A DNA stretch of 64,000 nt from a bacterium (GTDB taxonomy: Bacteria > Joyebacterota > Joyebacteria > Joyebacterales > Joyebacteraceae), in assembly GCA_025774935.1 (NCBI GenBank), contig JALGZK010000009.1:30401-94400 (forward strand), given 5' to 3'. Positions 35,778-62,146 of this stretch are shown here, piece after piece. Each line of letters begins with the position of its first letter. The stretch's first letter is position 1. A model generated the notes under the pieces. It was given only the letters and a program-made list of their open reading frames with translations. It searched no databases and was not told the DNA's origin. A program made the translations under genes and the position numbers.

Positions 35778-38273
35778 TCACTTCAGAAGCGTCATCTTCC
35801 GGAAGACGTTCTCGCCGCCGGTCGCTAGGCGCGCGAAGTAGATGCCAGAGCCAAGATCTGCTCCGTTCTCGTCAGCTCCGTCCCACACGACCACATGCTG
35901 CCCCGCCCCGACGGCCTCGTCGATGAGCGTCCTCACGAGCCGTCCGTTCACGCTGTAGATCGAGAGCCTCACGTGCTCCGTGCCGGCGGGGACGGCGAAC
36001 TCGATCGTCGTCTTCGGGTTGAACGGATTCGGGAAGTTCTGCTTCAGGGCGAGCCGGCCGAGCGGATCGTCCCCGTCCGGGATTCCCGTCTCCTCGCCGA
36101 ACCAGTCGAGCACTCTCCCCATCAGCGTCATCTGGTTGTTGGGGTCCGGCTGGTCCGTCTTGACGAGCTCGAACGGGAAGCACTGGAAGACGAGCCTGTG
36201 TCCGCTCTCGTCTACCTTGACGGCCTTCCCGCCGTTCGCGGCGTAGAAGACCGTGTCGGCCGGCGCCGCTGACTCCATGCTGTCAGTGTTCCCGGACGGG
36301 AACGGACCTCCCAGCAGCGGGAGGACCATCCCGTCGCCGATCGGATCGCCCGAGACCCCCGTCACGCTGAAGGCGCCGTTGTTGTTGCTCCACGAGTTCA
36401 CGTGGAGGTAGTCCGTCGTGAACGTGTTCGCCGAGGCTCGCGAGCTCAGGTAGTCCATGCTGGCGAGGAAGAGGTTCCCGCCCCCGTCGAGGTAGTCCAT
36501 CAGGTTCTCTTCGTCCTCGTCGGTGACGTAGAGGGCGTCCCCGTCCGCCGTAGTCCAGAGGACGGCCCAGTACGACGCGAGCTGGCCCTGACTCGGCCTG
36601 CCGAGCGCGTCACCGTCCCAGATCCTCACGGCGTAGCCGTTCTCCACGACGGCCGTCGCCATGTGAGTCTCGTAGGTCCCACCGTCGTCGTCGTCGACGA
36701 GCAGGATCGAGGGAAGGTCCACGAAGGTCGCGAACGAGTTCGACGTGATCGTCCGGGCGTCCTGCCCCGAGGCCGTGAGCGTGGTCAGGGCCATGCCCTG
36801 GACCGTCCCGATGACGTCGGCGCACTCGATCTCGAACTCCGCCTGCTCGCCGACGCCCAGGATGTACTCCGCCGGCTCCGTGTGCCAGATCATGTCCGGC
36901 CCGCGGAACCGCGCCGTCCACTCCGACGGATCGACGCCTTCCGGGAGAACCTCCTGAGCGACGTCAACGGTGACCGTGCTGGTCGCGACGCCGATGTTCT
37001 CGAGCACCGTGTGGTAGACGGCCTCACCGAGGTAGTCGATCTCGTCGGCGTACTGGTCCGTCGACACGAAGTCGAGCGTCGGGAACTCCAGCGAGAACGA
37101 GTCGATGATGTCGCCCTCGGGGGTCACTGCTTCGAAATCGAGGCCGTAGCCGTCGATGCTGATCTTGCAGTAGTGGTGCACCTCGGCGGTCGTGACCACG
37201 TACGGGTAGCTCGGGATGGGGGAGTAGAGCGGCGCGCCCCCTCCGCCGGTGGTGACGTGCTGGACACCGTTTACTTCCGCTCGCGCGTAGTAGTGGTTGT
37301 GCCCCCCGAAGATGATCGACACGCCGTACTGCTCGCAGAGGGGCTGGATGTAGTTCTGAACGGGGATCTCGTTGCTGTGGCCACCGGCGCTCCAGCCGGG
37401 TTCGTGCAGCTGAATGAACTTCCAGAGCTTGGTCGACGCGGCGAGGTCGCTCTCGATCCACAGAAGCTGGGCCGAGCCCGGAGCGTAGCTCGTATACTGA
37501 TCGACCACGACGAAGTGGGCCGGGCCGTAGTCGTACGACCAGTACCGTCCGCTCACGTACGGGTACGGGAAGTACTTCATGAACAGCACTCCGGACTCCT
37601 CGTGGTTTCCCATGGCCGAGTGGTACGGAACGCTTCGGAGGAACTCCTGGATGCCGGAGTACGCCGGGTCGAAGAACTCGTCCCGCCAGTCACCTTCCAG
37701 GTCGCCGTCCGAGACTAGGTCACCCACCACGGCGACGATCGACTGGTAGGCCGGATCGTCCGTGAAAGTCGAGATCATCGCCGACGCCACCTGGTCGTGG
37801 TCGGCGGGGTAGGTGCGCGTGTCGCCGTACGCCAGGAACTTGACCGCGGTCGCCGAGGGGTCGGGCGCCGCGGTGAAGGTACCCACGTGCTGCGCGTCCG
37901 GTGCGATGACGCGGTAGTAGTAGTAAGTCCCGGGCACGAGGCCCGGAATCGTGAAGGTGTGCTGGTGGTCGGTCCCGTACTCGGTGGTCTCGGCGCTTCC
38001 GAGCGCGTACGTCGTGTCGAGCCCCCACTCGATCTCGCAGGTGTCCGGTCCGTCGAGCTGCCAGAGGACCTGCATCTCGGCGGGGTTCCCGGGCCAGATG
38101 AGATACGGCGCCTTCTCCGTCTGAACCGGCCGCCCGCGGGGCGCGGCGGACGCCGCAGTGTCGGGCTGGATGCTGTCGTCCGCGCCGTACAGTAGGAGGG
38201 GCAGGAGGGTGATCATCAGTGCCGCGAGCGCACTCGCGGCGACGGCGGTGCGTCTTCGATCGTTCGCCCGCAT
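35778..38273 (-). CDS. Secreted metallophosphoesterase (purple acid phosphatase-like) with FlgD-like C-terminal module
   Basis: An 831-residue exported enzyme. After a signal peptide (1-33) comes a fibronectin-like N-terminal domain of the purple acid phosphatase type (MQVLWQLDGPDTCEIEWG ... GLVPGTYYYYRV), then the calcineurin-like catalytic domain with YGDTRTYP, VVGDLVSDGD, GNHEESG, a central His and GGHNHYYAR. About 300 residues of further beta domains follow, then a module starting NFPNPFNPKTTIEFAVP and ending SGIYFARLATGG and MTLLK. ATG at 38273 has AGGAGG nine bases upstream. It probably hydrolyses phosphate esters outside the cell. Confidence 0.93.
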   Translation of the reverse strand: MRANDRRRTAVAASALAALMITLLPLLLYGADDSIQPDTAASAAPRGRPVQTEKAPYLIWPGNPAEMQVLWQLDGPDTCEIEWGLDTTYALGSAETTEYGTDHQHTFTIPGLVPGTYYYYRVIAPDAQHVGTFTAAPDPSATAVKFLAYGDTRTYPADHDQVASAMISTFTDDPAYQSIVAVVGDLVSDGDLEGDWRDEFFDPAYSGIQEFLRSVPYHSAMGNHEESGVLFMKYFPYPYVSGRYWSYDYGPAHFVVVDQYTSYAPGSAQLLWIESDLAASTKLWKFIQLHEPGWSAGGHSNEIPVQNYIQPLCEQYGVSIIFGGHNHYYARAEVNGVQHVTTGGGGAPLYSPIPSYPYVVTTAEVHHYCKISIDGYGLDFEAVTPEGDIIDSFSLEFPTLDFVSTDQYADEIDYLGEAVYHTVLENIGVATSTVTVDVAQEVLPEGVDPSEWTARFRGPDMIWHTEPAEYILGVGEQAEFEIECADVIGTVQGMALTTLTASGQDARTITSNSFATFVDLPSILLVDDDDGGTYETHMATAVVENGYAVRIWDGDALGRPSQGQLASYWAVLWTTADGDALYVTDEDEENLMDYLDGGGNLFLASMDYLSSRASANTFTTDYLHVNSWSNNNGAFSVTGVSGDPIGDGMVLPLLGGPFPSGNTDSMESAAPADTVFYAANGGKAVKVDESGHRLVFQCFPFELVKTDQPDPNNQMTLMGRVLDWFGEETGIPDGDDPLGRLALKQNFPNPFNPKTTIEFAVPAGTEHVRLSIYSVNGRLVRTLIDEAVGAGQHVVVWDGADENGADLGSGIYFARLATGGENVFRKMTLLK

Positions 38274-40132: not shown

Positions 40133-41164
40133 ATGAAGAAAACGTTGGTGCGAGGCTTCGCGACTGCGGCGGTTCTCATGTCCGCGCTCCTTGCTCCCGC
40201 TGGAGCGTCTCAGTGCCATCCGGCAGAGGATCCCACCAGTGGGATGGCCGGCCCGTCCGCCGTGGAGCTGAATCTCATCGGCGGGTTCGACACGCCGGGC
40301 AGCGCCAGGGCGGTAGCCGTTGCTGGAGGACTTGCTTTCGTTGCGGATGGGAGCTCCGGGCTTCACGTGCTTGACGTGACCGATCCGGCGACTCCTGCGC
40401 ACGTGTCGAGCTACGACACGCCGGGCACTGCGATGGGCGCGACCGCTGCCGGCGACTTCGTCTTCGTCGCGGACGGTCGTTCAGGAGTGCTGGTGCTGGA
40501 TGTGAGCGATCCCACGATGCCTGCGTTCGTTGCGGAGTACGACACCGATGGATCAGCCCGCGTCATAGACATCTACGGGCACTACGCCTACGTGGCCGAC
40601 TTTGACTCCGGTCTCTGGATCCTCGATGTCTCCAACCCCGCGAGACCCGAACTCGCTGCAGTCTACGAAACGCCGGGGGATGCATACGGTGTGGCGGTCG
40701 CCGGCGGATACGCCTACGTTGCGAACTTCGATTCGGGATTGCAGATCGTCGATGTGAGCGAACCGACGGAGCCGTTCCTTGCTGCCAACCTAGATACTCC
40801 GGGGCTCGCGGTTCGCGTCGCGCTCGACGGCGACCTCGTCTACGTGGCGGACGAGGCCGCCGGACTCCAGGTAATCGACGTTCGCGATCCGACGACTCCC
40901 GTCATCGTGGGGAACCACCCCGTGTCGCACTACGCGTACGGTGTCGCCATCGACGGCCAACGGGTCTATCTGGCGGAGGGTTCTGAAGGCGTGCAGGTCG
41001 TGGACGTCGCGGATGCCTCGAACCCGGCGACGCTCTCGACCTCCAGCGCACCAGGCACCTCCGTCGATGTTGCCGTGGCCGGTGTCTACGCTTACGTAGC
41101 GGCCACTCGATCCGGCGTCCATGTGTTCCAGGCAACCCGGCCCGACGAGAAGAGAGGCGAATGA
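40133..41164 (+). CDS. Exported LVIVD-repeat beta-propeller protein
   Basis: A 343-residue protein: signal peptide 1-25 (FATAAVLMSALLAPAGAS), then about seven repeats of ~43 residues with the pattern GGxAYVADxxSGLxVLDVSDPxxPxxVxxYDTPG. This is the LVIVD family, predicted to fold as a single propeller on the cell surface. It lacks both the FlgD-like module and the WGxIK tag; it simply ends in a charged tail (RPDEKRGE). ATG at 40133 follows GGGAGGGAG. The same repeat type forms the N-terminal part of the selenoprotein at 58699. No promoter was evident in 39,995-40,132. Confidence 0.88.
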   Translation: MKKTLVRGFATAAVLMSALLAPAGASQCHPAEDPTSGMAGPSAVELNLIGGFDTPGSARAVAVAGGLAFVADGSSGLHVLDVTDPATPAHVSSYDTPGTAMGATAAGDFVFVADGRSGVLVLDVSDPTMPAFVAEYDTDGSARVIDIYGHYAYVADFDSGLWILDVSNPARPELAAVYETPGDAYGVAVAGGYAYVANFDSGLQIVDVSEPTEPFLAANLDTPGLAVRVALDGDLVYVADEAAGLQVIDVRDPTTPVIVGNHPVSHYAYGVAIDGQRVYLAEGSEGVQVVDVADASNPATLSTSSAPGTSVDVAVAGVYAYVAATRSGVHVFQATRPDEKRGE

Positions 41165-41224: not shown

Positions 41225-44200
41225 CTACCGCAGGAACACGACCTTCCTCGAGGCGACGTTCGCTCCCGCCTCGACCCTCACGAAGTAGACGCCGCTGGCC
41301 ACGCGGCTTCCCCTCCCGTGAGCGCCGTCCCACCGGATCGCGTGCTCGCCCGCCAGCAGCTCGGCGTCGACGAGCGTCCGCACGAGGCGGCCCGCTGCGC
41401 TGTAGATTCTGACCGTCACGTTCTCCGGAGCGGGCAGCGAGAGCGTCATCCTCGTGTCGCCCGAGAACGGGTTCGGGCGCGCCGGGTGGAACCTGAAGAT
41501 CGCCGCCGGCTCTCCGTCTTCGATTCCCGTCCCCGTCAGGTCTATGTGAACGTCGATGCGCGCGGCGGTCGCGTACCCGCCGGCGTTCGCCGTCACGTTC
41601 GCCCAGAGCGTCGCGACGGTGTCGGAGACGGCCTCTGACACCATGAACGTGAGCGGGTCGATCGTGTTCTGAGCGGAAGCGCCCGCGGGAACGTCCGGGA
41701 ACGCCGACGTGCTGTCGACGACCGTCAGCTCGCTCCCGCTCGAGGTCAGAACGACCGACACGCCCTCGGCCGCATCCCCGCCCTGGTTGTCCAGGGTCAG
41801 GGTGACCGAGACCGTCTCGCCGGGCTGCGGCAGCCCGTCGCCGTTCCCGCCCCCCGCGTCATCCAGGACGACGCTTTCCAGGACGAGCCAGGGAATGTCG
41901 GGGTCCTCCGGCGCGATCGTCGTGAAGAGGATCGCCGTGCCGTCGTCGATCGTCGGCGCTCCTGAGGCGTAGGTACCGTCGTAGACCCACTGGATCCCGC
42001 CGGTCTGCGCCGGGTTCTCGATCCCGACCGTGCACGCGCCCGGGTCCGACACGTCCTGGTACTGGACAAGGATCATCCCGTCGCCCGTGGGGGTGGGGTA
42101 GTACTCCGGGTTCAGCAGCATCACCTGGAACGTCTCCGTCGCCAGGCTGTCCCAGTGCCTGACCTCGTCGAACTGGACGACGTAACGGTGGTTCGCCGCG
42201 TCGAGGAACCGGTAGATCTCCCCGCCAGCCGACGGATCGAGGTCGTCCCAGAACGGCGCGATCATCCGGGCCGGCCCGTGCGGGTCCGGGATCGGCGAGT
42301 TGTCTCCGAAACGGTAGTCGGTGTACCCCATAGCCGCGAAACCGTTCGAGCAGACCGAGATCTCGTTGTAGGTGGTCCCGTAGTAGGGGAAGTCGAAGAA
42401 GAAGAAGAGGGTCGTCGTCGCCGCGTCCTCGTCGGTGATCTCGGTCACGAGGGTGCCGGGCCCCGGGGGCGCGATGTCGGACCATTCGAACGTCGGGGCC
42501 GGTCCGTACTCCGAGTCCCCCTGGTCGTAGGCGAAGTACCCGTACCCGTCCGGTCCCGTCGGGCCCGACGACGAGGGGCCGGAGAGCGTGAGCTCGACGT
42601 CGGCGGTCGTGGCGTACTGGTAGGAGTGTCCGTCCGCTTCCAGCGCGAGTGAGAACGAAGCGACGTGGCCGTTCGGGGCGATCGGGGAGACGGACACGGC
42701 GAACGGGAGACTCGCGTTGTCGCACGTCGACCCCGCACCCGCGTCGGTGAACGCTGAGTATCCAGATGTCACCGCGACGTACTCGTCCGAGCTCGCGAGC
42801 GTGCCCTCGATGGACTCGAGTGCGCACTCGCCGTCGTTGGCGAGCGTGACGACGAGGGAGACGGTCTCGCCCGCTTCCGCCACTCCGTCGCCGTCGCCTC
42901 CGGGCGGGTCGTCGACCACTTCCACCGATGCGGGGGAGAGGTGTCCGGCTGCGATCTCGATCGCCGGCGGATGCACGACCCTCGTCGTACCGCCGTACGC
43001 GAGCGAGAGCGCGAAGGGCACGACATGGTCTCCCTGGCAGTCTGCCGAGACGGTCAACTCGAACTCGTCCTGCCCCCACACGGTCGCGTCGGGGGAGATG
43101 TCACCGAAGTAGGCGAGGCTGTCGACGAGCGTCGTGTGGACCTCGTCCGTTCTGAACGTAGCCGTGAGCGAGGGGGCGGGCTCGTTCCCGATGTTCGTGA
43201 GCGCAACCGAGACGAGCGCGGTCTCACCGGGGCTCAGGAGGCCGTCCCCGTTTCCGCCGGCCGAGTCGTCGATCGCGGTCTCCGAGTGTGTGACGAACGG
43301 GCCGCTCGGCAGAACGACGACAGTGCCCTCGTAGGGCAGTGCGTTCCTTGCCGTCACGGTGACCGAGAGATCGCCGGGCGACGAGGGAGAGATGGGCAGG
43401 ACGGCCGCGCCGAGGGCGTCGGTGTACTGCCACGAGTAGACGTCGCTCCCCATGACACAGGCGACGAGAGCGTCCTCCACCGGCGCACCGTCCTTGAGGA
43501 CCGTGACCCCCAGGTCCGACGGCCCCGTCGACGCACCCTCGTCGTGGTAGACCGTCAGGTGAGAGGGCGTCCCGGTCCAGAGATTGAGCTCTGGATCCCC
43601 GAGGAGGTTCCAGGCCTGGTACTCCTGGTGGTTCTCGTCGTGCATGAAGAGGTTGAGCTTGCCCGCGAGACACGCTTCACCCAGCGTGAGTGCGTCAGGC
43701 CCGAAGGCGTTCGCCATGAACCCCTCGTCAACGTACCCGCGCCTGAGCGAGAGCGCCTGGCTGGCGCCTATGATCGTGTTGCTGCCGAAGAAGGCGACGC
43801 CCCCTGCGGGGTCCGTCGCCGAGCCTGCCCGCACCCAGGTCTCGCAGACGTATCCGTCGACGTCGAACACGCCGGTCCCGCAGGTCGCCGACACGACGAC
43901 CGGCAGGCGCCAGCCGCTGGTCGTGGCGTTGGGGTTGATGTCGAAGGGGGGATTCCAGTTGAAGAGGGCCTGCCCCCTGAAGTTCAGGAAGCCCCTTCCC
44001 TCGTTCACTGAGTTGTAGACGTCCTGTGTCGAGACGGGGTTCCGCCTGAAGAGCGTGTCGACGGGAGCGAACTCCGCGGACTGCATCAGGTCGTATACGA
44101 ACCACGTGTTCGCGTAGTAGATCCAGTCACCGTCGTCGAAGTCGTCGGCGATCATGAGGGTCGCCGACGTAGGCCACGCCGGATCGTCCTCGACGGGCGT

Positions 44201-45407: not shown

Positions 45408-47126
45408 ATGCGGACACTGTCAACCGCCTGTCTTCTCCTCCTCCTCGCGCTCGCCACCGTCACTCACGCCCAGTGGTCGTCGGATCCCGCCGCGAACCTC
45501 GCAATCACGGACGCAGCGCTCGACCAGGTGCAGCCCAAGGTGGCCCCGACGGCCGACGGCGGCTGCTACATCAGCTGGTTCGACGGCCTCGGGAACGGGT
45601 TCGACGTGCGCCTGCAGAAGCTGGACGCCGGGGGCAACGAGCTCCTCGCGCACAACGGGGTCCTCGTCGCCGACCGCGGTTTCAGCTGGACGCAGGACTA
45701 CGGCCTCGACGTCGACGTCGAAGGAAACGCGCTGCTCACGTTCCGCGACGACCGCGGGACGGGTGAGCAGATCACGGCGTCGAAGGTCTCGCCGACAGGG
45801 ATGCTCCTCTGGGGAACGATGGGCGTCCAGCTCACGAACACCGGCAGCTTCGTCGCGTCGCCGAAGATCGCAGGTACGAGCGACGGCGGCGTCGTGGTCA
45901 CCTGGACCCAGGACTCGGACGCGCGTCTGATGAAGCTCGACACGACCGGAGCCCCGGTGTGGCTCTCCGACGTCGTGCTCACGCCGCCCGAGGGCACCTA
46001 CACCGCGAGCGACCTGCACGACGCGGGCACCGATGTCATCCTCTCCATCGTCCACCAGATCGGGCCCGAGTTCTGGCAGCCGAAGCAGCTCCGGGCGCAG
46101 AAGCTGGATTCCGCCGGCGCGTCCCTCTGGGGCGGTGGCAGCCCGGTCGCGGTCTTCGACAGCGGCTCGCTCCAGTTCGGGAACTACCCCGAGTTCGTGC
46201 CGGACGGGTCCGGCGGCGCTGTCTTCAGCTGGTACGACACGAGCTCGCAGCTCCAGTGCTACGCGCAGCACATACTCGCGGACGGGAGCGATGCGTTCCC
46301 GCACAATGGTTCGGCGACGTCGACGAACGCCACGCGCGTGCGCGTCTCGCCGTCGGCCGCGTTCAACCCTTCGACGGGCGAGACGTTCGTCTTCTGGCGG
46401 GAACAGAACTCGTCCCAGTCCCAGCACGGCGTCTACGGGCAGAAGTTCAACGCAACGGGCACCCGCCAGTGGACCGACTCTGGCGCCGTGGTCGTGCCGG
46501 TCGGTTCCGACGAGACCGGTCTCGTCCGGTGCGTGACGCAGGGGACCGGCGCGTTCGTGTTCTGGGCGCAGGCCCCGGGCTTCGGGCAGGACCGGCTCTA
46601 CGGAGCGCGCCTCGACGCGTTGGGGTCGATCGACATCTCCCAGTTCGACGTTGCGTCGACACCGAGCGGCAAGTCGCGCCTCGACATCGGACGGAGCACC
46701 GCGAGCCACGTGATCCTCGCGTGGCAGGACACCCGCGACGACGCTGGCGACATCTTCGCGCAGAACGTCAACGGCGACGGGACCCTCGGGACGCCTATGG
46801 TCGGGGTCCCTGAGGGCGAGGGAGAGGGAGAGGGAGAGGGAGAGGGAGAGGTCTCGATTCTCTTCCTCGGCGCTGCCCGGCCGAACCCCACGGCCGTCGG
46901 GACGTGGTTTGAGTACTCGGCATCCGGCGCCGGCGAAGTCGTCTTCGACCTCTACGATGCCGGCGGCCGCGTCGTCCGATCCGGTCTGGAGGCGACGGCA
47001 GCGCAGGGACTCGTGACATGGGACGGACGCGACGACATCGGCCAGCCCGTCGCGAGCGGAGTCTACCTTCTCATGATGAGGCGCGGCGAAGAGGTGCGCA
47101 CGAGCAAGGTCACCGTCATCAGATAG
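45408..47126 (+). CDS. Exported repeat (propeller-like) protein with Gly-Glu linker and FlgD-like C-terminal module
   Basis: A 572-residue protein with a signal peptide (1-21, ending THAQ). Residues ~30-465 contain repeats of the form GGxxISWxDxxxGxDVRLQKLDAGG and VFSWYDTSSQLQCYAQHI, an eight-odd-bladed propeller by appearance, with no catalytic motif. A linker of six Gly-Glu pairs follows, encoded by a hexanucleotide repeat, then the C-terminal module (FLGAARPNPTAVGTWFEY ... WDGRDDIGQPVASGVYLL ... VTVIR). AAGGGGG precedes the ATG. TATGAT at about 45295 may be a -10, but no -35 was found. Function unknown. Confidence 0.82.
   Translation: MRTLSTACLLLLLALATVTHAQWSSDPAANLAITDAALDQVQPKVAPTADGGCYISWFDGLGNGFDVRLQKLDAGGNELLAHNGVLVADRGFSWTQDYGLDVDVEGNALLTFRDDRGTGEQITASKVSPTGMLLWGTMGVQLTNTGSFVASPKIAGTSDGGVVVTWTQDSDARLMKLDTTGAPVWLSDVVLTPPEGTYTASDLHDAGTDVILSIVHQIGPEFWQPKQLRAQKLDSAGASLWGGGSPVAVFDSGSLQFGNYPEFVPDGSGGAVFSWYDTSSQLQCYAQHILADGSDAFPHNGSATSTNATRVRVSPSAAFNPSTGETFVFWREQNSSQSQHGVYGQKFNATGTRQWTDSGAVVVPVGSDETGLVRCVTQGTGAFVFWAQAPGFGQDRLYGARLDALGSIDISQFDVASTPSGKSRLDIGRSTASHVILAWQDTRDDAGDIFAQNVNGDGTLGTPMVGVPEGEGEGEGEGEGEVSILFLGAARPNPTAVGTWFEYSASGAGEVVFDLYDAGGRVVRSGLEATAAQGLVTWDGRDDIGQPVASGVYLLMMRRGEEVRTSKVTVIR
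46812..46851 (+). repeat. In-frame GGGAGA microsatellite
   Basis: About six tandem 6-bp units (GAGGGC then GAGGGA) encode Gly-Glu repeats. The unit is a multiple of three, so slippage would change linker length and keep the frame. Confidence 0.85.
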
Positions 47127-48622: not shown

Positions 48623-49825
48623 CTACCTGAACATCCCCTTCAGGACGCCCCAGCTCGTCTCGTTCGTCTGCTCCCCGGTGCCCGATTCGGAGCAGCCGGG
48701 TCCCCACGCTCCGATCTGTCCGCAGTGAGGCGTGCCGCCAGGCAGGCAGGATGACCCCGCCTCGAGCGTGTATGGCTGCGCCGGGTTGTGCGCTCCACAG
48801 AAGAGCGGGTCCTCGCTGATGTTCCCGCCGACGCCCTCGTATGCCGCAATGCACCCGACCCAGTCCCCGCCTGCGTTCCCGTAGACGTCCGAGCACGTGA
48901 CGGTTGGGGCAGAGGAAGCGTCGCAGTCGATGGCCTCGCCCGCAGTGCTGAACGCGATGATGCTGTGCATGATGAACGGGCTCGAGTCCGTCCTGCAATA
49001 GAGCGCCCCGCCTGCAACGGCGGAGTTCTCCGCGAACGTCGCGCCCACGATCATGGGGGAGGAGAAGTCCTCGCAGAACATGCCACCCCCGTAGACGCTC
49101 GCAGAGTTCCCTCCGAACGTGACGTACGTCAGCGATGGCTCCGAGTACGTTCTGCACGCGAGAGCGCCCCCGGAGTCGCCCGCCATGTTGGCGGTGAAGA
49201 CGACGTCCATGAGCGACGGATCGGAGTGGCCCTTGCACAGCATCGCTCCTCCGTCGTTGTCCGACGTGTTCCCGATGAAGCTCACACGCTCAAACGACGG
49301 GGAGGAGGAGTCGCAGCACACAGCGCCTCCCTCTACGGCGGTGTTGCTATGGAACTTGACGTCGGAGAGCATCGGGGCTGAGTTCGCGCAGAAGAGCGCA
49401 CCACCGAGCGTCCCGCTGTTGTCCACGAACGTGACGTCGGTGATCTTCAGGAACGAGAACTGGCAGACCATCCCCCCGCCGCCCACGCCCGGATTGTCGA
49501 GATGCGAGCCGCCGGTGATGGTGATGCCCCGGATGTTCGTCGCGGCGTCGAGGCTCCAGCACATGAAGACCGGCTCACCCGCGTGCTCCCCGTCGACCGT
49601 GACGCACTCCGGCTCCCCCGTCTCGCTCGTGAGCGTGACCCCGGACTTCATGTCGATGTCGTGTTCGTAGTAGGTGCCGCACGCGACGACGACGGTGTCG
49701 CCGGCTGCTGCGGCGTCGATGCCCGCCTGGATGGTCGGTTGCTGGGAGGGGACGTGGATGGTCGCTGCGCCGGCGATTGCGGCGAACCCCAGGCACACGA
49801 ATGCTGCCGGCACGGAAGGCCTCAT
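48623..49825 (-). CDS. Exported right-handed beta-helix protein with C-terminal WGVLKGMFR tag
   Basis: A 400-residue protein: signal peptide 1-20, then the opening strand of a parallel beta-helix (TIHVPSQQPTIQAGIDAAAAGD, typical of pectin-lyase-like folds) and about nine coils with the repeated GGALxC/FxxNxA pattern. Each coil carries one or two Cys, pointing to a disulfide ladder. The end is NETSWGVLKGMFR, the shared tag. GGAGG precedes the ATG. It is a paralog in layout of the protein at 60782. No catalytic residues are apparent; a structural or adhesive role is likely. Confidence 0.88.
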   Translation of the reverse strand: MRPSVPAAFVCLGFAAIAGAATIHVPSQQPTIQAGIDAAAAGDTVVVACGTYYEHDIDMKSGVTLTSETGEPECVTVDGEHAGEPVFMCWSLDAATNIRGITITGGSHLDNPGVGGGGMVCQFSFLKITDVTFVDNSGTLGGALFCANSAPMLSDVKFHSNTAVEGGAVCCDSSSPSFERVSFIGNTSDNDGGAMLCKGHSDPSLMDVVFTANMAGDSGGALACRTYSEPSLTYVTFGGNSASVYGGGMFCEDFSSPMIVGATFAENSAVAGGALYCRTDSSPFIMHSIIAFSTAGEAIDCDASSAPTVTCSDVYGNAGGDWVGCIAAYEGVGGNISEDPLFCGAHNPAQPYTLEAGSSCLPGGTPHCGQIGAWGPGCSESGTGEQTNETSWGVLKGMFR

Positions 49826-50202: not shown

Positions 50203-53200
50203 ATGACTGCTCAGAGGAGGGGTGTGGTGAGGACGGCTCTGTGGCTCACAGCAGCGATTCTGATGATTGCGGCGATCCCGGCGAGCGGACGTCCGTACAA
50301 TGGCGAGGTCGTCTCCATCCGGCAGCCCGACGGTTCGTTCGTCGACGTCCGGGTCTGGGGCGACGAGTTCTACGCCGTCGGCGAGACGCTCGACGGCTAC
50401 ACTGTGACGCGCGACCCCGAGAGCGGGATGCACTCGTACGCCCGGCTCTCGGCGGACGGGGCGTCGCTCGTCTCGACGGGCGTTCCGGCAGCGGAGTCCC
50501 CGCCCGCGGGTCTTGAGAAGCACATACGGATCTCCGACGACGCGAGGAGAGACCAGGCGCGCACGTCGCGAGAGGGCTTCGAGCAGCGCGCATTCGAGGG
50601 GCCGTTCGCGCCGCGCGCGCGCGCGGCAGGTCGGCCCACGGCGGGGGCCGTGCAGGGCATCACACTCATCATCGATTTCGACGACGACCCCGCGACCATC
50701 GCGTCATCTGCGATCGAGGATTACTGCAATCTCCCGGGCTACACGGGCTACGGGAACCACGGCTCGGTCCGCGACTACTTCTTCGAAGTCTCCGACGAGA
50801 ACCTGGAGTACACGAACTTCGTCCCGGACCACTACTTCCGCGCCAGCCGATCGAAGGCATACTATACGGACCCGCTCGCTCCCTACGGCCAGCGGGCGCG
50901 CGAGCTCATCCACGAGGCGCTGGTCGATCTCAATAACAGCGGCTTCGACTTCAGCCTCTACGACGCCGACGACAATGGCATCATCGACGCGCTGAACTGC
51001 TTCTACGCCGGCGGCATCTGGAACAACTGGGCCCAGGGGCTCTGGCCGCACGCCGGCTGGATGGAGTACTGCGCAGACGGGGTGTGCACACAGCGCTATC
51101 AGATTACGAACCTCGGGAACACCCTCGCCCTCGGAACATTCTGTCACGAGAACGGTCACATGCTGATGGGCTGGCCAGACCTCTACGACTACGACGGCGA
51201 CTCCTCCGGGGTCGGCGTGTACTGCCTCATGTCAGGAGGCGGCTTCGGCACGAACCCGGTCGAGCCGTGCGCCTACATGAAGTACATCGCGGGTTGGGGT
51301 GACGTGACCGAGCCGACCCAGCTTCAGAGCGACCTCCCCGTCGCCTCGGACAGCAACGTCATCTACAAGTTCAATCACCCGACGCTATCGAACGAGTACT
51401 ACCTCATCGAGAATCGGCAGCGTGTCGACCGTGACGCCAATCTGACCGACGATGGCATCGCCATCTGGCACATCGACACCGACGGCAACAACAGCAACCA
51501 GCAGCAGACGCCGGAGTTGCACTACCTTGTCACGCTCGTCCAGGCGGACGGCCGCTGGGACCTCGAGCACGACGCGAACAACGGAGACGGCACCGATCTC
51601 TACGCCGCCCCTCAGTTCACGGACTGCACGCCGTACACACACCCGAACACGCACTGGTGGGACGGGAGCCCCTCGGGCCTGTCGTTCACCAATATCAGCA
51701 CTTCCGGGACCGTGATGACCTTCGACTTCGAGGACCAGCCGCCGCCCATCCCGCAGAACGTAACGGCTGTCGGCGAGGAGCTCTCGGTCTCCCTGAAGTG
51801 GAACTCGGTACCGGTCGCGGATCTCGATCGCTACGTCGTCGAGCGCGACACGACCGACCTCTTCGGGGCCGGAACGGTATCGGCGTCGGTCGTGGACACC
51901 GCCTACGTGGACGGTCCCCTGCCGAGCGGCGTCGAGCACTACTACCGCGTCTCGGCCGTCGACCTCGCGGGCCAGGCGGGAGACCCGAGCGCCACGGTCT
52001 CCGCGGTGCCGCTCCCGGATGTCGCGCCCTCGGCGCCTGTCGACCTCGAGGCGCTTGGCGGCGGCGGAGTGATCACGCTCAAGTGGCCGGAGAACCCCGA
52101 GGTGGACGTCATCGGTTACCACGTTCTGAGATGCATCGAGCCCTCGTTCGCGGAACCCGACACGCTCGAGGTTGCGACCGCAGGGACCTGCACGGACTCC
52201 ACCTGCGCGCCGGGCACCTCCTACTGGTACAGTCTCATCGCGGAGGACGCGGCGGGCAATCTGAGCGAGCCGAGCGCCCCGGCCGCCGGCATCGGCGTCT
52301 CGGGAGACGCCGTCTTCGTCGATCAGACGAACTCGGGGGCGCAGAACGGCTCGTACACGAATCCGTTCCGGACCCTGCCGATCGCGATCTTCGCGGCGGA
52401 TCCCAACGATGTCGTCATCGTCTATCCGGGCGAGTACACCCTCCCCATCGAGCTCAAGGACCAGGTGCCTGTGATCGGCATGCGGGGAGCGGCAACGACG
52501 TCGATGACAGCGGCCGTCACAGCGATCGGAATCGGCGCTGAGACAGTGTTCAAGGGGTTCAGGCTCGACGGAGGCGGCGCCATCGCCACAGGACTCGACC
52601 TCTTCGGATGCGACCTGTCCGTCGAGGACTGCGAGTTCGCGAACATGACGAACGCCGGAGTCAGTACCCACGGCGGCGGTTCGCCGCTCATCGTCCGGAG
52701 CTTGTTCGCCGGCAGCCAGACCGGCCTCACGTGCTCCGACACGTCGGCGCCGATCCTCAACTCGAACACGTTCCAGGGGAATTCGCTCGCGCACATCTTC
52801 ACGTCCGGGGATCCAGGACCGTACGTCGGCATCGGTCTCGCCGGCGCGAACGACTTCCTGGATCATGGCTCCTTCACGATCTTCAACACCGGCGCGGCGA
52901 CGATCGCCGCGGAGTACAACTACTGGGGTGACAACTGCGCCGAATCGTCATGGTTCACAGGGCCGGTCGACTACACGCCGTGGACGGACGCGACGCACAC
53001 GGCCGAGTTCTTCGAGTGCGGGACGGGAGTGCCGGAGGACGTGATCCCGCGTGTGGCGTTCGCCGGCCCGAGCTTCCCGAACCCGTCGCGTCACGAGACG
53101 AGCATCGCATTCGGGCTGCCGTCTCCTGAAGGGGCGACGAGCCTTCGGATCTACAGTGCCGCCGGCAGGCTCGTCCGGACGCTCGTGGACGGACCGGTCC

Positions 53201-53331
53201 CGGCGGGACGCCACGTCGCGCACTGGGACGGGAACGACGACCGCGGGAAGAGGGTGTCATCCGGGGTCTACTTCTTCAGGCTCACGGCGGGCGGGTTCGA
53301 GGGCACCGGGAAGATGGTCCGCCTGAGGTAG
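50203..53331 (+). CDS. Secreted M6-family metalloprotease with Fn3 repeats and FlgD-like C-terminal module
   Basis: A 1,042-residue exported protease. Signal peptide 1-29; a prodomain-like start (PYNGEVVSIRQPDGSFVDVRVWGDEF) typical of M6 proteins; catalytic domain with the zinc motif HENGH (His315, Glu316, His319) followed by WPDLYD. Two fibronectin type III domains follow (about 518-605 and 610-700), then a beta-helix-like stretch (VFVDQTNSGAQNGSYTNPFRTL ...), then the C-terminal module (PSFPNPSRHETSIAFGLP, SAAGRLVRTLVDG, WDGNDDRGKRVSSGVYFFRL, MVRLR). AGAGGGG precedes the ATG. It degrades extracellular protein. It heads a + strand pair with the GH13 gene 83 bases on. Confidence 0.95.
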   Translation: MTAQRRGVVRTALWLTAAILMIAAIPASGRPYNGEVVSIRQPDGSFVDVRVWGDEFYAVGETLDGYTVTRDPESGMHSYARLSADGASLVSTGVPAAESPPAGLEKHIRISDDARRDQARTSREGFEQRAFEGPFAPRARAAGRPTAGAVQGITLIIDFDDDPATIASSAIEDYCNLPGYTGYGNHGSVRDYFFEVSDENLEYTNFVPDHYFRASRSKAYYTDPLAPYGQRARELIHEALVDLNNSGFDFSLYDADDNGIIDALNCFYAGGIWNNWAQGLWPHAGWMEYCADGVCTQRYQITNLGNTLALGTFCHENGHMLMGWPDLYDYDGDSSGVGVYCLMSGGGFGTNPVEPCAYMKYIAGWGDVTEPTQLQSDLPVASDSNVIYKFNHPTLSNEYYLIENRQRVDRDANLTDDGIAIWHIDTDGNNSNQQQTPELHYLVTLVQADGRWDLEHDANNGDGTDLYAAPQFTDCTPYTHPNTHWWDGSPSGLSFTNISTSGTVMTFDFEDQPPPIPQNVTAVGEELSVSLKWNSVPVADLDRYVVERDTTDLFGAGTVSASVVDTAYVDGPLPSGVEHYYRVSAVDLAGQAGDPSATVSAVPLPDVAPSAPVDLEALGGGGVITLKWPENPEVDVIGYHVLRCIEPSFAEPDTLEVATAGTCTDSTCAPGTSYWYSLIAEDAAGNLSEPSAPAAGIGVSGDAVFVDQTNSGAQNGSYTNPFRTLPIAIFAADPNDVVIVYPGEYTLPIELKDQVPVIGMRGAATTSMTAAVTAIGIGAETVFKGFRLDGGGAIATGLDLFGCDLSVEDCEFANMTNAGVSTHGGGSPLIVRSLFAGSQTGLTCSDTSAPILNSNTFQGNSLAHIFTSGDPGPYVGIGLAGANDFLDHGSFTIFNTGAATIAAEYNYWGDNCAESSWFTGPVDYTPWTDATHTAEFFECGTGVPEDVIPRVAFAGPSFPNPSRHETSIAFGLPSPEGATSLRIYSAAGRLVRTLVDGPVPAGRHVAHWDGNDDRGKRVSSGVYFFRLTAGGFEGTGKMVRLR

Positions 53332-53414: not shown

Positions 53415-55916
53415 ATGCATCGTGCCGCGACATCACTGACGATCGTGCTCCTCACGGGGGTATTCGCCCTCGGAGCGTGGGCCGCCGGACCCGACAACAG
53501 CGTCGAGTGGAACGGCGTGTCGCACTTCCCGTCGCTCGACCGAAGGCCGCTCTGTCCCCTGGACGGCGAGTCGTTCGAGGTCCGGTTCCAGACCTACTCG
53601 AACGACATCACGTCCGCGCGCCTGCACGCGGACGACGGGAGCACGACGTGGGTCACCGCCCTCCTCACCGACGCGCGAGGGCCGTACGACGTCTGGACGG
53701 CGGACGTTCCGGCGACTGCCTCCTCGACGCTCTCGTACTACCTCGAGATCACCGACGGCACGGACACCGACTACCTGAGTCGGACCGGGATGTCGTCGGG
53801 CGTGCCCGCGGACGGCGGCTTCGAGATCGACTACGACACGCTCGAGCACGCACCGATCGGCGCAACGCCGCATCCTGATGGCGGGACAGTCTTCAAGGTC
53901 TGGTCGCCTGACCGGACCGCGTGCCACGTGCGCGGGCAGTTCAACGGGTGGAGCACGAGCGATCCGATGGACAAGGTCGGCGAGCACTTCATCCTGTACG
54001 TCCCGAACGCGTCCCCCGGGCAGGAGTACAAGTTCTACTTCCAGAACACCCACTGGGTCACCGACGCGCGCGGCAAGGCGCTCCTTGCCGGCGACAACTA
54101 CAACGCGGTCATCCAGGATCCCTTCGCGTACGTCTGGCAGGTGGGCGACTTCGACGCTCCCGAACTCGGTGAGATGGTGATCTATCAGCTGCACGTCGGG
54201 ACGTTCGCGGGACGGAACGACCCCCACGGCTCGACTCCGTTCCCGTCGCGCTACGTCGACGTCGGCGATCGGGCGCAGCACCTCGCCGACCTCGGCGTGA
54301 ACGCCGTCATGCTGAACCCGATCAACGAGTTCCCCGGCGACTACTCCGCGGGCTACAACCCGGTCTCGCAGTGGGCGCCCGAGGGGAAGTACGGCACGCC
54401 CGACGATCTCAAGTGGATGATCGACCAGCTCCACGCGCACGGCATCGCGGTCCTCCTCGACATCGTCTGGAATCATTTCTCGTTCACCGACAACTTCATG
54501 TGGTTCTACGACGGGACGCAGATCTACTTCGACGATCCCGCCGTCGAGACCCCGTGGGGGAGCCAGGCGGACTTCGACCGGGCGGCGGTGCGCGGTTATT
54601 TCGCCGACAGCGCCCACTACTGGCTCGAGGAACTCAGGTTCGACGGCTTCCGGATGGACGCGACGAGCTACATGAACATCGCCCCGCAGGAGGCATCGGG
54701 CTGGAGCCTGATGCAGCGCCTGAACGACGAGGTCGACAACCGCTCGGTCGACAAGCCGATGATCGCTGAACAGCTGCCCGACAACTCGTGGGTCACGCGT
54801 CCGACCTCGCTCGGGGGCGCAGGGTTCGACTCGCAGTACCACGACAACTTCACCGACCGCCTCCGCGAGGTCGTCTACGGCGCCGCCTTCGGCTCGGCCG
54901 ACATGTGGAAGATCCAGAACATCGTGAACGGCAGCGGGACGTATCTCGAGAACAGGTACGCCACGAACTACCTCGAGCTCCACGACGAGGCGTGGCCCTC
55001 GAGCGGCGGACAGCGGATCGTGAAGACGATCGACACCACGTTCCCGCACGACGACATCTTCGCGAAGGGGCGCTCGAAGCTCGCGCAGGGCGTCGTCATG
55101 GGAGCGCCCGGAGTGCCCGCGATGCTCCAGGGCACCGAGTGGCTCGAGGATTCCGACTTCGGGACCGATCCCGCGAACCGCATCGACTGGTCGAAGAAGA
55201 CGACTTACGCGGGTATCTTCGAGTACTACCGCGATCTCATCACCCTCCGGCGTCTGAGCCCGGCTCTCAGGGCCGACGCTGGCCACCAGGTCTTCCACGT
55301 GAACGAGAGCGGGGACGTCATCGCGTGGCAGCGCTACGACGACTCGGGGAACGTCCTCGTCGTGATAGCGAGCTTCTGGAACGGCAACTACGGGAGCTAT
55401 CGGATCGGTCTCCCGCAGGGCGGCAACTGGTTCGAGGTCCTGAACAGCCAGGCGAGCGAATACGAGGGCAACGGCCTCACGAACCCCGGCACGATCGTGC
55501 CCGACGCGATCCCACAGGACGGGTTCGTGCAGTCGGCGGAGATCACGATTCCGCAGATGGGGTTCATCGTGCTGTCGTGGGGCGAGTCGACGTCGGTGCC
55601 GGGCGGGTCCGAAGACCCGACCGAGGTCGGGGAGGGGCGCCGTCTCAGGGCGTTCCCCAACCCGCTCCGTCCGGGAATCGGGCGGACGACGATCGAGTTC
55701 TCGCTTCCCTCTGAAGAGCGGGTCAGCATCGCGGTCTACGACGTCACCGGCAGAAAGGTGCGCGTGCTCCTCGACGGGACGCTCCCGGCCGGCGTGCACG
55801 AGAGCGCGTGGGACGGGACGGACGGGCGCGGGCGGCCGCTCGCGTCGGGCGTCTACTTCCTCCGCCTCGCGTCGGGCGCCGACGCGAAGTCGGCCAAGCT
55901 CGTGCTCATGAGATAG
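53415..55916 (+). CDS. Secreted GH13 alpha-glucan-active enzyme with FlgD-like C-terminal module
   Basis: An 833-residue exported protein. Signal peptide 1-23; N-terminal beta domains including a CBM48-like module (GGTVFKVWSPDRTACHVRGQFNGW); then a (beta/alpha)8 GH13 domain with VIYQLHVGTF, GVNAVMLNPINEF, VLLDIVWNH, nucleophile Asp415 in FDGFRMDAT, acid/base Glu452 in MIAEQLPD, and LELHDE with the transition-state Asp. The CBM48 plus this layout resembles branching enzymes or maltooligosyl-trehalose hydrolases, but surface location argues for starch or glycogen breakdown. The end module has FPNPLRPGIGRTTIEFSLP, WDGTDGRGRPLASGVYFLRL and LVLMR. GGAGAG precedes the ATG. A strong terminator follows. 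Confidence 0.92.
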   Translation: MHRAATSLTIVLLTGVFALGAWAAGPDNSVEWNGVSHFPSLDRRPLCPLDGESFEVRFQTYSNDITSARLHADDGSTTWVTALLTDARGPYDVWTADVPATASSTLSYYLEITDGTDTDYLSRTGMSSGVPADGGFEIDYDTLEHAPIGATPHPDGGTVFKVWSPDRTACHVRGQFNGWSTSDPMDKVGEHFILYVPNASPGQEYKFYFQNTHWVTDARGKALLAGDNYNAVIQDPFAYVWQVGDFDAPELGEMVIYQLHVGTFAGRNDPHGSTPFPSRYVDVGDRAQHLADLGVNAVMLNPINEFPGDYSAGYNPVSQWAPEGKYGTPDDLKWMIDQLHAHGIAVLLDIVWNHFSFTDNFMWFYDGTQIYFDDPAVETPWGSQADFDRAAVRGYFADSAHYWLEELRFDGFRMDATSYMNIAPQEASGWSLMQRLNDEVDNRSVDKPMIAEQLPDNSWVTRPTSLGGAGFDSQYHDNFTDRLREVVYGAAFGSADMWKIQNIVNGSGTYLENRYATNYLELHDEAWPSSGGQRIVKTIDTTFPHDDIFAKGRSKLAQGVVMGAPGVPAMLQGTEWLEDSDFGTDPANRIDWSKKTTYAGIFEYYRDLITLRRLSPALRADAGHQVFHVNESGDVIAWQRYDDSGNVLVVIASFWNGNYGSYRIGLPQGGNWFEVLNSQASEYEGNGLTNPGTIVPDAIPQDGFVQSAEITIPQMGFIVLSWGESTSVPGGSEDPTEVGEGRRLRAFPNPLRPGIGRTTIEFSLPSEERVSIAVYDVTGRKVRVLLDGTLPAGVHESAWDGTDGRGRPLASGVYFLRLASGADAKSAKLVLMR

Positions 55917-58533: not shown

Positions 58534-58698
58534 CCGTTCCGCAGCGTCAGCTTCGTTTCATTGACCTCCGGGACGCGTCCCGGGCTCCAGACGACCTGCG
58601 TGCCCGACACCTCCCGCGAACCGCGCACCCCCCTTCTGAATCTAAACAGCTGACGTGTGACGGCGGGGGTGGTCCCCGCCTGGGAGGAGGAGGGGTAG

Positions 58699-60729
58699 AT
58701 GACTCGCCTACTGGCGGCCCTGGCCGCCTTTTTCGCAATCTTGAGCTTCGCGCTCCCGGACGGCGCCGCCCTCGCACAGGACGGCGTCGACGGTTTGCGG
58801 CTCCTCGGACGGAACGAGGATGAGTTCGCTCACCAGATGGACTTCCACGTGGCGGGCGACGTGGCGTACGCCTCGGTCGGGCTCGGGCTCGGGTTCCATG
58901 CGTACGACATCTCCGACCCGGACAACATCACGCGGGGAAGCACCGTGGGCCACGCGGCCTGGAGGTCGCACGTAGAGGGGAACCTGGCGTACAGCTTCGC
59001 TCACGACCTGGGAGTGCAGGTATTCGACGTCAGCGGCGGGGGTGCGGCGATCCTGGTGGACTCGTACAACCCGCCTGGGGTCGACACCTCCTACGAGGGC
59101 GGCGTTCCCGTCGGCGACCGCTTGTACGTCGCGGCGCATCAGAAGGGTATCGACATCCTCAATCTGAATCCCGCGGAGACGTTCGCTCCAATCGGCCGGA
59201 TCGTGCTCGAGGACAACGCGTGCTGGAACGTCGTCGAGTCGGGGGGCTACCTCTACGTAGCGAACGGTCGCTTCGGCCTCTCGGTCGTGCACCTCTCGGG
59301 GTCGGACACGGAGGTGGCCGCGCTCGATCTCCCGGGGCTCGCGAACGACGTCGAGGTGTCGGGTGACGTGGTGTTCCTGTCGCTCGCCGCTGAAGGCATA
59401 GCGTCCGTCGACGTGTCGGACCCCGTGAACCCCGTGCTCCTCGACATCGCGCCGACGCTCGGGAACGCGTTCAGCATGGGACTCGTCGGGGACGTCCTCG
59501 CGGTCGGCTCGTATCCATACCTCGAGCGCTTCGACGTGAGTGACCCCGTGAAGATCCAGCGCTCCGGCTGGGACGCGACGCTCGTCTACGCGATGGGCGC
59601 CGACGTCGGCGTTACCTCGAGCGGCGACACTGTCATCGTCGTCGCCGACTGGCGCGGAATGGGAGTCTACGCTCCGGAACATGACCCGGAAGGCGACATC
59701 GAAGTGTGGCCGGCGCGCCTCGACTTCGGAGCGGTGAACGCGGCCACGCGCGACAGCGCGGTGATCGTCAGGAACAACGGAGCGGGCTCGCTCACCGTCA
59801 GCTCGATCAACACCCCGGCCGGGATCACCGCAAGCACAGGCGGATTCACGCTGGGCCCCGGCGAGTCGCGGAGCGTGGTCGTGTCGGCGACCGGACCTGA
59901 CATGGTGAGGAGCACGATTGAGTACGTCTCGAACGACCCTGACGAACCGTCGACCATCCAGTTCGTGTACAAGAACAACACGACGTTCCCTCAGATGGGC
60001 TCGGTGGCCCCCGACTTCACACTCCTCGGGACCGACATGCAGATGCACTCGCTCTCGGACTTCCGCGGGAAGGTGGTCTACCTCGAGTTCGGAGCGAGTT
60101 GGTGACCCATCTGTCCGCTGCAGGCTGCAGCGACAGACGGTTCGATCCACGAGAGGTACAGCTCCGAGGACGTCGTCGTCATCGGGATAGCGAGGACGCT
60201 CTCGCAGCTCGAGGAGTTCAGGGACACCTACGGGGTGAGGTTCCTCGGTCTGGAGGACTCGGACTCGTCCGTCTATCTGGAGTACCGCGTCCCCGATCCC
60301 GAGGCGCCCTATCCCCAGGACTACGTCATCGACCAGGACGGCATCGTTCGGTACTGGTCGTGGGAGTACGACCCGCAGGAGGTCAAGCTGGTCATCGACA
60401 CGCTCCTCTCGAGCGCCGGGATCGGCAACTGGGATCCTGGTCAGGGCGGCACGGGGCTCAGGTTCGCGCCGCCGGCCCCGAATCCCTTCCGCGAGGAGAC
60501 CGACCTCCGGTACGTGCTGCCCGAGCGGGCGCGCGTGGAGATCAGGGTGTACGCGGTGAACGGGAGCCTCGTTCGGACGGTTCTCGACCGCAAGCAACCG
60601 GCGGGGGAGTACCTCACGCGGTGGGACGGCAGGGACGACGCGGGCACGGAGGTCGCGAGCGGGGTCTACTTCATCGAGCTCGAGGCCGGAGGCGTCCGCC
60701 AGTCCAGGAGGGCGGTTCTTCTTCGTTAG
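58699..60729 (+). CDS. Probable selenoprotein: exported LVIVD propeller + thioredoxin-like (UxxC) domain + FlgD-like C-terminal module
   Basis: Read as one 676-residue protein with in-frame TGA (60103-60105) decoded as selenocysteine 469. Residues 1-27 are a signal peptide; ~30-335 are LVIVD repeats (DISDPDNI, VDVSDPVNPVLL, ERFDVSDPVKI); ~335-430 a beta-sandwich (LDFGAVNAATRDSAVIVRNNG). Then a redoxin/TlpA domain: MGSVAPDFTLLGTD, LSDFRGKVVYLEFGASW, then TGA-P-I-C in the place of CxxC, VVVIGIARTLSQLEEF and YPQDYVIDQDG. The end module has PAPNPFREETDLRYVLP, WDGRDDAGTEVASGVYFI and AVLLR. The frame is unbroken except for this TGA, and a SECIS-like hairpin follows it. If TGA were a stop, the protein would end just before its active site. 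The ATG follows GGGAGGAGGAGGGG. It probably performs exported thiol-disulfide or peroxide chemistry. Confidence 0.85.
60103..60136 (+). promoter_or_regulatory. Sec codon TGA and bacterial SECIS-like hairpin
   Basis: Five bases after TGA, CTGTC-C-GCTGCA (60111-60122) pairs with TGCAGC-GACAG (60126-60136), leaving GGC as the loop and one bulged C at 60116. The loop GG (60123-60124) lies 17 bases after the TGA, within the spacing known for bacterial SECIS elements, and the bulge plus GG resembles the E. coli fdhF element. Confidence 0.8.
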
Positions 60730-60781: not shown

Positions 60782-62146
60782 ATGCGCACTATTGTCAGGA
60801 CCAGGACTCGGGGCACGAGCTCCGTCCTCATCGCAGCGGCAGCGGCGGTGTTGGCGGCTCTCGCGGTGCTCGCGATCTCGGCGGGTCCAGCGGGGGCAGG
60901 CACGTGGGTCGTTCACGCGGACGGTTCCGGAGACGCCCCGACCATCCAGGCGGCGGTCGACGCTTCCGCGGCGGGCGACACCGTGCTCGTGACGGCGGGC
61001 GTCTACACCGATGCGAGCCCGGACATCAGCGGCACGCCGACCGTGGTCGAGATGAAGTCCGGCGTCGCGCTCCGTTCTGTCGACGGGCCCGCTCTCACCG
61101 TGCTGGACGTGAGCGCCGAGGAGTTCGGACGTGGGATCGCGTGCAGGGGCTGCGACTCGAACACACTCGTCGAGGGCTTCACCCTGAAGGGCGGGGAGGC
61201 CTTCGCGGGCGCGGGCATCCTGGTAGAGGGCGGCGCGCCCGAGATCGCCGGAAACAAGTTCACCGCGAACCCGGGCGGCATGGGAGGCGGGCTGTACGTG
61301 ACCGCCGGGGCGACGTCCGATGTTCACGACAACCTGTTCGACGACAACGAGGCGTGCTGCGGGCCGGGGGGGGCGATCCTGATCGACGCCGGATCGGAGC
61401 CGCACGTCTTCGACAACGTCTTCGTCGGGAACCACGGGTTCGCGGGCGGCGCAGTGGCGGTCCAGAGCGCGGGCGGGCTCATCGAGCGGAACGAGTTCAC
61501 CGGAAACGGCGGGACCGACGGCGGAGCGCTCTCCCTGTGGTCGGCGACAGCCGATGTACGCGAGAACACGTTCGTCGGCAACACCGCGACGACGGGGGGC
61601 GGCGCCGTGCTGTTCAAGTTCGGAAGCACGGGACAGTTCCACGACAACCTCGTCGCCGGCAACGTCGCCGAGGGCAACGGCGGCGGCATCCTTGTGAGCG
61701 CGTCGTCACCCGAGATCTCGCGGAGCACGGTGGCCGGGAACTCGGCGGCCCAGGGCGGAGGGGTCTTCGTCGCGGGGTCCTCGGAGCCCGTCTTCGACCG
61801 GGTGATCGTGGCGATGAACACCGGCGCCGGGGGGATCGTCTGCGAGAGCACAGGCTCGCAGCCGAGCTTCAGCTGCACGAACGCGTTCGGGAACGAGGGC
61901 GGCGATTACGGGGGGCAGTGTGCGGATCCGACCGGTTCCGACGGCAACTTCTCGGAGGACCCCAAGTTCTGCAACGGGGAGGCGGGCGACTACGCGCTCT
62001 GCAGCACCTCTCCGTGCGCCCCGGGGGGCCATCCCGACGGCTGGGAGTGCGGCCTCATCGGGGCCGTCGAGGTCGACTGCACCTGCGAGCAGACCGCGAT
62101 CGAGGACGAGGCGACGTGGGGGGCGATCAAGGCGCTTTTTCGCTGA
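60782..62146 (+). CDS. Exported right-handed beta-helix protein with C-terminal WGAIKALFR tag
   Basis: A 454-residue protein with a signal peptide (about 1-40), a pectin-lyase-like opening strand (TWVVHADGSGDAPTIQAAVDASAAGD), and about ten coils with GGGLYV/GGAVAV-type turns and FxGNxA repeats. A Cys-rich segment follows (CESTGSQPSFSC ... CSTSPCAPGGHPDGWECGLIG ... CTCEQ), then the tag ATWGAIKALFR. It closely parallels the protein at 48623 in layout, including the SEDPxFC and PGGxPxCGxIG pieces near the end. GGGGGAGGAG precedes the ATG. It starts 52 bases after the selenoprotein stop and may share its transcript. Confidence 0.9.
   Translation: MRTIVRTRTRGTSSVLIAAAAAVLAALAVLAISAGPAGAGTWVVHADGSGDAPTIQAAVDASAAGDTVLVTAGVYTDASPDISGTPTVVEMKSGVALRSVDGPALTVLDVSAEEFGRGIACRGCDSNTLVEGFTLKGGEAFAGAGILVEGGAPEIAGNKFTANPGGMGGGLYVTAGATSDVHDNLFDDNEACCGPGGAILIDAGSEPHVFDNVFVGNHGFAGGAVAVQSAGGLIERNEFTGNGGTDGGALSLWSATADVRENTFVGNTATTGGGAVLFKFGSTGQFHDNLVAGNVAEGNGGGILVSASSPEISRSTVAGNSAAQGGGVFVAGSSEPVFDRVIVAMNTGAGGIVCESTGSQPSFSCTNAFGNEGGDYGGQCADPTGSDGNFSEDPKFCNGEAGDYALCSTSPCAPGGHPDGWECGLIGAVEVDCTCEQTAIEDEATWGAIKALFR

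Follow-up and report, generated by a model that had tools for sequence, protein, structure and literature searches.

The window analysed here is a 64,000-nucleotide stretch of a genome (G000; 3.24 Mb, 96% complete) that carries on its forward strand a gene for a 676-residue protein closed by a TAG stop. The sole interior stop of this gene is a TGA at the codon for residue 469, in the context GASW-TGA-CCC-ATC-TGT, which reads GASW-U-PIC if the TGA is translated as selenocysteine (Sec). The original prediction had described the frame as open from end to end save for that one TGA, and re-reading returned the same frame. A gene for a right-handed beta-helix protein follows directly downstream (Table 1).

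Table 1. Features of the selenoprotein locus, in coordinates of the window, with the evidence for each.
Feature	Positions	Strand	Basis
Purine-rich ribosome-binding stretch GGGAGGAGGAGGGG	58682-58695	+	Precedes ATG; read from sequence
Selenoprotein gene	58699-60729	+	One interior TGA; homologs share frame and TGA
Likely signal peptide, residues 1-26, ends ALA before QDG	58699-58776	+	Translation by eye; helix 2-17 in model
LVIVD beta-propeller, about residues 33-325	58795-59673	+	Pfam LVIVD; AlphaFold all-beta repeats; Foldseek
Choice-of-anchor D / HYDIN-ASH-like Ig domain, about residues 331-425	59689-59973	+	NCBIfam NF012200 below cut-off; homologs match PF22544 above cut-off
AhpC-TSA/TlpA-like redoxin, about residues 432-575, UxxC, putative cis-Pro 539	59992-60423	+	Pfam; PDB ResA/TlpA-like matches; TlpA/ResA alignment
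Selenocysteine codon TGA, Sec469	60103-60105	+	TGA in 14/14 members; Cys in ordinary homologs
Bacterial SECIS hairpin, apical AGGCU at 60122-60126	60110-60137	+	Fold, covariation, synonymous constraint
FlgD_ig / T9SS type A sorting-like C-terminal module, residues 594-671	60478-60711	+	TIGR04183; FlgD_ig
Neighbour, right-handed beta-helix (PF13229/NosD-like) exported protein	60782-62146	+	Pfam; recurrent partner gene

Profile searches of the read-through protein revealed four domains where three had been foreseen, since the propeller, redoxin and FlgD-like module of the original prediction were all present and a choice-of-anchor D domain had been missed. The LVIVD repeats exceeded the cut-off of PF08309 (22.8 versus 20.2 bits), which identifies the N-terminal region as an LVIVD propeller by profile, and its AlphaFold model consists of all-beta repeats that Foldseek matched to designed 8-bladed propellers, WD40 proteins and BamB. 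Elsewhere in the window, positions 40319-41128 encode a further propeller protein of the LVIVD (choice-of-anchor B) type, which shares 30% identity with the propeller described here. The choice-of-anchor D match at residues 331-397 (NF012200, E 4e-6) lies under that model's own cut-off, and homologs of the selenoprotein matched the related HYDIN-like Ig domain PF22544 above cut-off. The redoxin was recognised by AhpC-TSA (PF00578) at residues 434-552 (68.6 bits against a cut-off of 26, E 6e-19) and by PF08534 (46.5 bits against 26.6), the first of these matches spanning the TGA, as expected from the claim that the redoxin fold continues past it. At the C-terminus, Pfam placed a FlgD_ig domain at residues 601-663 (37.5 bits against 27, E 2e-9).

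Searching 386 genomes and GTDB contigs for relatives revealed a family of 14 genes in 11 genomes, found both in the window's own taxonomic family and in families that share with it only the domain Bacteria. Eight of these genes form clade A, with 56-89% identity to the window protein across the anchor-D/redoxin region, and the other six form a distant clade B at about 30% identity. A profile of the two domains separated the family (E 2e-37 or better) from the next matches, which fell to 1e-25 and covered the redoxin alone. In the closest homolog (L022/L050, G002:C85; 88%) the reading frame is broken near query residues 201-236, probably through an error in assembly, and the TGA and hairpin are intact. 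The family gene of G217 is interrupted in its assembly, and the member G136b has no recognisable propeller upstream. The gene is patchy in its distribution, because G001, a genome of the same genus, possesses SelB and lacks the family gene. Against plasmid records, all matches were partial and confined to single domains.

Relatives of the beta-helix gene adjoin the family gene in G000, G002, G003, L051, L052 and G226 (upstream in G226), and in G136 the beta-helix and the Sec protein occupy one frame (L084:7634-11095, 1154 codons) in which another C-terminus replaces the FlgD tail. It is reasonable to infer that the two proteins share a function. The minus strand of the window holds, at 48626-49816, another beta-helix gene paralogous to this neighbour.

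The original prediction also held that the protein is exported and ends in a sorting module; export gained a signal-like N-terminus in its favour, and the module is more precisely described as T9SS-like. We consider it likely that the type IX system delivers the protein to the surface or the outside of the cell, because the tail (residues 594-671) exceeded the cut-off of the type A model TIGR04183, albeit by a narrow margin (24.7 versus 23 bits), because SprA, the T9SS part searched for, was found in G000 with its pieces joined (529.8 bits against a cut-off of 200), and because similar tails occur on dozens of G000 proteins. Within the window, the same FlgD/T9SS-like tail was seen on genes at 15218-15505, 35781-36032, 41228-41557, 46881-47123, 53068-53328 and 55509-55913. 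Across the family, TIGR04183 matched above cut-off in G000, G003, G226a, G074 and G008, as well as in the paralog L052b, with L051 and L052a under the report limit and several members under or barely over the cut-off. Those low scores would suit a Sec-containing protein that is retained in the periplasm or outer membrane, and whose FlgD-like tail is a structural Ig domain and not a T9SS signal, as would the overlap of FlgD_ig and type A tails in the models and the access to CcdA/DsbD-type reductants that the periplasm gives. Such a location is unlikely in our view, if still a serious contender, given the above-cut-off tails in five genomes, the SprA match and a tail carried by dozens of proteins per genome.

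Turning to the catalytic domain, AlphaFold modelled the redoxin with low confidence both in the full chain and alone, and the Foldseek ranking obtained from this weak model, led by ResA/TlpA-like proteins and extracellular thioredoxins, serves as support only. A phmmer search of the PDB likewise returned ResA/TlpA-like matches for the domain. In an alignment with TlpA/ResA, Sec469 falls on the first, nucleophilic Cys of WCxxC, just as the TGA had been proposed to replace the first Cys of a CxxC, with Cys472 on the second Cys, Pro539 on the cis-Pro loop and Gln475 in the position of the Glu that follows CxxC in ResA. The domain falls outside ResA proper, with 49 bits for NF002854 against a cut-off of 170 and Gln475 instead of Glu, and it lacks the peroxiredoxin PxxxTxxC motif, having Ala466 three residues before Sec (GASWUPIC). 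Because of this Gln and the missing motif, we read the domain from its sequence as a putative ResA/TlpA-like thiol or selenol oxidoreductase, not a peroxiredoxin, whose chemistry may differ from that of ResA, as Gln replaces Glu three residues after the second Cys. If Sec is inserted, the enzyme might instead be a peroxidase of the PrxQ/BCP-like kind, a suggestion that can draw on the AhpC-TSA score, on weak scores with thiol peroxidase and PrxQ models and on the suitability of selenols for peroxide reduction. We hold this to be rather improbable in view of the absent motif, the alignment of Sec with the first Cys of WCxxC and the lead of ResA/TlpA-like proteins among the solved-structure matches. 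The active-site alignment and the export signals together favour the exported redox enzyme of the original prediction, although export and redox activity both remain predictions.

The genome of the window possesses the complete Sec-decoding trait (selA, selB, selC and selD), so that the sel genes proposed for checking the original prediction were all found above cut-off: tRNA-Sec at 71.5 bits (called SeC with anticodon tca by ARAGORN), SelB at 344.6, SelA at 533 and SelD at 371 bits. The selD gene (L015/L001, G000:C14:177978-179137) itself contains an in-frame TGA (ECAG-U-ASK) and lies directly upstream of the tRNA-Sec gene. Among the other carriers of the family gene, SelB was above cut-off in G003, G074, G136, G226 and G217, SelA in G002, G003, G008, G074, G136 and G226, and tRNA-Sec was found in G002, G003, G008, G009, G074, G136 and G226, so that each carrier genome searched has at least one Sec marker. 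The tRNA-Sec search had no match in G217, and in G009 tRNA-Sec was the only Sec marker matched; both assemblies are fragmented. G000 also encodes a second Sec redoxin (L056, G000:C38:19459-19800, minus strand), whose frame of 561 codons has a single TGA, in FTUGPC, behind a long N-terminal part that appears repeat-like.

A TGA stands at the Sec469 codon in all 14 family members, and at the same position about 20 of 20 next-best TlpA/ResA homologs have Cys, for the most part within WATWCxPC. This is the Sec/Cys pairing of a bacterial selenoprotein gene, and it answers the question that the original prediction had raised about residue 469 in homologs. No Cys-containing ortholog with the same domains was found in the 386 genomes. 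A tandem paralog (L052:6257-8281) has His-Pro-Ser-Gly in place of the Sec motif, lacks the hairpin and shows no excess of synonymous conservation after the site (4/8 versus 0.50), and it is a natural Sec-loss copy, probably redox-dead. The UxxC motif is not universal in the family, because L051 (5327-5338) kept Sec and lost the resolving Cys (UPVV); in this member a Cys has appeared two positions ahead of Sec, which may make a CxU motif.

Folding of the DNA after the TGA revealed a hairpin of 12 bp with one bulge and an AGGCU apex (core about -17 kcal/mol, -22 with flanks, z -3.8), confirming the claim of a GG-loop hairpin just behind the TGA. The published bSECIS consensus (PMC13188914, Fig. 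2) has an apical loop of 3-9 nt on an upper stem of 4-16 bp, a G among the first two loop positions (pattern N1-G-[G/U]-N-N2), 16-37 nt from UGA to loop and an MFE of at most -7.5 kcal/mol, and the hairpin agrees with it on all four counts. Its loop is a 3-nt GGC (or AGGCU with the A-U pair open) on a 6-bp upper stem over 6 further pairs, the loop G is present here in AGGCU and in relatives in GGUC or AGUUG, the loop begins 16-17 nt from the UGA, and the energy is -17.1 kcal/mol.

Hairpin and open frame are weak evidence by themselves, because the GC-rich window (66% GC) yields many of both: some 25-30 of its 1,584 TGAs precede an equally stable G-loop hairpin, and about two dozen have more than 150 open codons on each side. 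Where other frames of the window are interrupted by a TGA close to a Cys, they made no coding sense by eye. The case therefore rests on comparative data and on domain homology across the TGA. In clade A the DNA 3' of the TGA is nearly invariant though identity between most of the proteins is only about 57-63%. The fully conserved amino-acid columns are codon-invariant in 7 of 11 cases after the TGA but in 19 of 174 at other positions (P 1e-4), and the top codon-conservation windows of the gene all lie on the hairpin. Across clades A and B, four of the six stem pairs changed on both sides with pairing kept at 100% in nine sequences, and pairing dropped strongly in a control in which the partner was slid by 1-3 columns; in G008, G009 and G003b the stem register is shifted by one and the loop is GGUC. 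Behind the TGA, purifying selection acts on the sequence as protein, given a dN/dS of about 0.4 there (about 0.35 ahead of the TGA). These nucleotide tests (codon conservation, covariation and dN/dS) draw on few independent lineages and are to be taken jointly.

Were the TGA an ordinary stop, the gene would encode a 468-residue propeller protein, and the redoxin and FlgD parts downstream would be a remnant or a separate short gene. Neighbouring genes do terminate in TGA, so this codon is a stop elsewhere, and the chance controls show that in this window a TGA followed by an open frame and a stable hairpin is no rarity. We nevertheless consider a stop very improbable, because the redoxin match spans the TGA, the TGA is kept in 14 genes, the downstream dN/dS is that of a protein, and the SECIS covariation and synonymous constraint speak against it; moreover, the only downstream start in the ORF list is a GTG at 60235, which would remove the beginning of the thioredoxin fold. 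A sequencing or assembly error of TGC or TGT, which single-window MAG data might have suggested, has a negligible chance, as the same TGA occurs in 14 genes of 11 independent genomes with conserved SECIS nucleotides after it.

Reading of the UGA at 60103 as Sec469 is very well supported by comparative sequence analysis, and the insertion claimed in the original prediction gains from the sel genes, the 14 of 14 TGAs, the SECIS covariation, the synonymous constraint and the dN/dS. We put the probability of the whole proposal, an exported selenoprotein with Sec469 inserted by SelB and SECIS, a T9SS route and thiol/selenol oxidoreductase activity, at roughly 0.85. SelB carrying Sec-tRNA would bind the hairpin and recode the UGA, the signal peptide would take the protein out through the Sec pathway, and the FlgD-like/type A tail would most likely direct it to the type IX system and so to the surface or outside. 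There the Sec469 selenolate may attack a disulfide or an oxidised substrate and Cys472 may resolve the bond, judging by the TlpA/ResA alignment, with the LVIVD propeller and the Ig domain acting as binding or spacing modules, perhaps together with the neighbouring beta-helix protein. That this is in addition a Sec-only family without a Cys ortholog, exported by T9SS on a propeller scaffold with a beta-helix partner, and the first selenoprotein among T9SS cargo, we advance tentatively, at somewhat under even odds.

If correct, the proposal adds a multidomain and probably surface-exposed family to the selenoproteins, which are mostly single-domain redox proteins, and extends Sec use to uncultured lineages for which no selenoprotein paper was found. 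The family has likely stayed hidden because annotation pipelines would cut each gene at the TGA, leaving a shortened propeller protein and a redoxin that lacks its beginning. With no Cys version among the genomes searched, and a paralog in which Sec and SECIS are both gone, the family lends itself to the question of why certain redox enzymes depend on selenium. The domain combination had been called undescribed in the original prediction; the UxxC redoxin within it is already known, and the architecture is absent from the literature found. An inventory from 2026 that covers 119 families of prokaryotic selenoproteins includes several UxxC redoxins, entered by domain ID, and no LVIVD, anchor-D or T9SS architecture, and our searches, mostly of papers outside subscription, returned none joining LVIVD with selenocysteine and none usefully joining type IX secretion with selenoproteins or describing a selenoprotein as T9SS cargo. 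The catalytic domain is of a known kind; what would be new, provisionally because of that literature coverage, is the arrangement of domains, the way the protein is exported and the apparent absence of orthologs with Cys.

Compared with known systems, LVIVD repeat/choice-of-anchor B proteins likewise carry an N-terminal LVIVD beta-propeller on exported proteins, and to our knowledge none of them is known with a redoxin or Sec. Type A cargo of T9SS shares the C-terminal FlgD/Por_Secre-like tail, with SprA in the genome. The UxxC redoxin selenoproteins of PMC13188914, whose Table 1 lists Prx-like thiol:disulfide oxidoreductase, thiol-disulfide isomerase-like and Redoxin families (PF00578, cd02966, PF08534), have the same AhpC-TSA/redoxin fold, Sec for the first Cys of CxxC and a SECIS directly after the UGA, but no described propeller, anchor-D or T9SS tail; this comparison is by domain ID and motif, and one entry, such as that represented by HEU0032618.1, might share the architecture. 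The WAxxUGC/UGC ResA-like selenoproteins (NF041054) are also ResA-like Sec redoxins, with weak similarity seen in two members, but they differ in their UGC motif and architecture, and scores lay far under the cut-off of 300. ResA, TlpA and extracellular thioredoxins (1st9, 4txv, 2yp6) share the fold, the WxxC active-site position, the cis-Pro loop and an extracytoplasmic place, whereas the selenoprotein has Sec for Cys, Gln or Ala at the position of ResA Glu80, and a four-domain chain.
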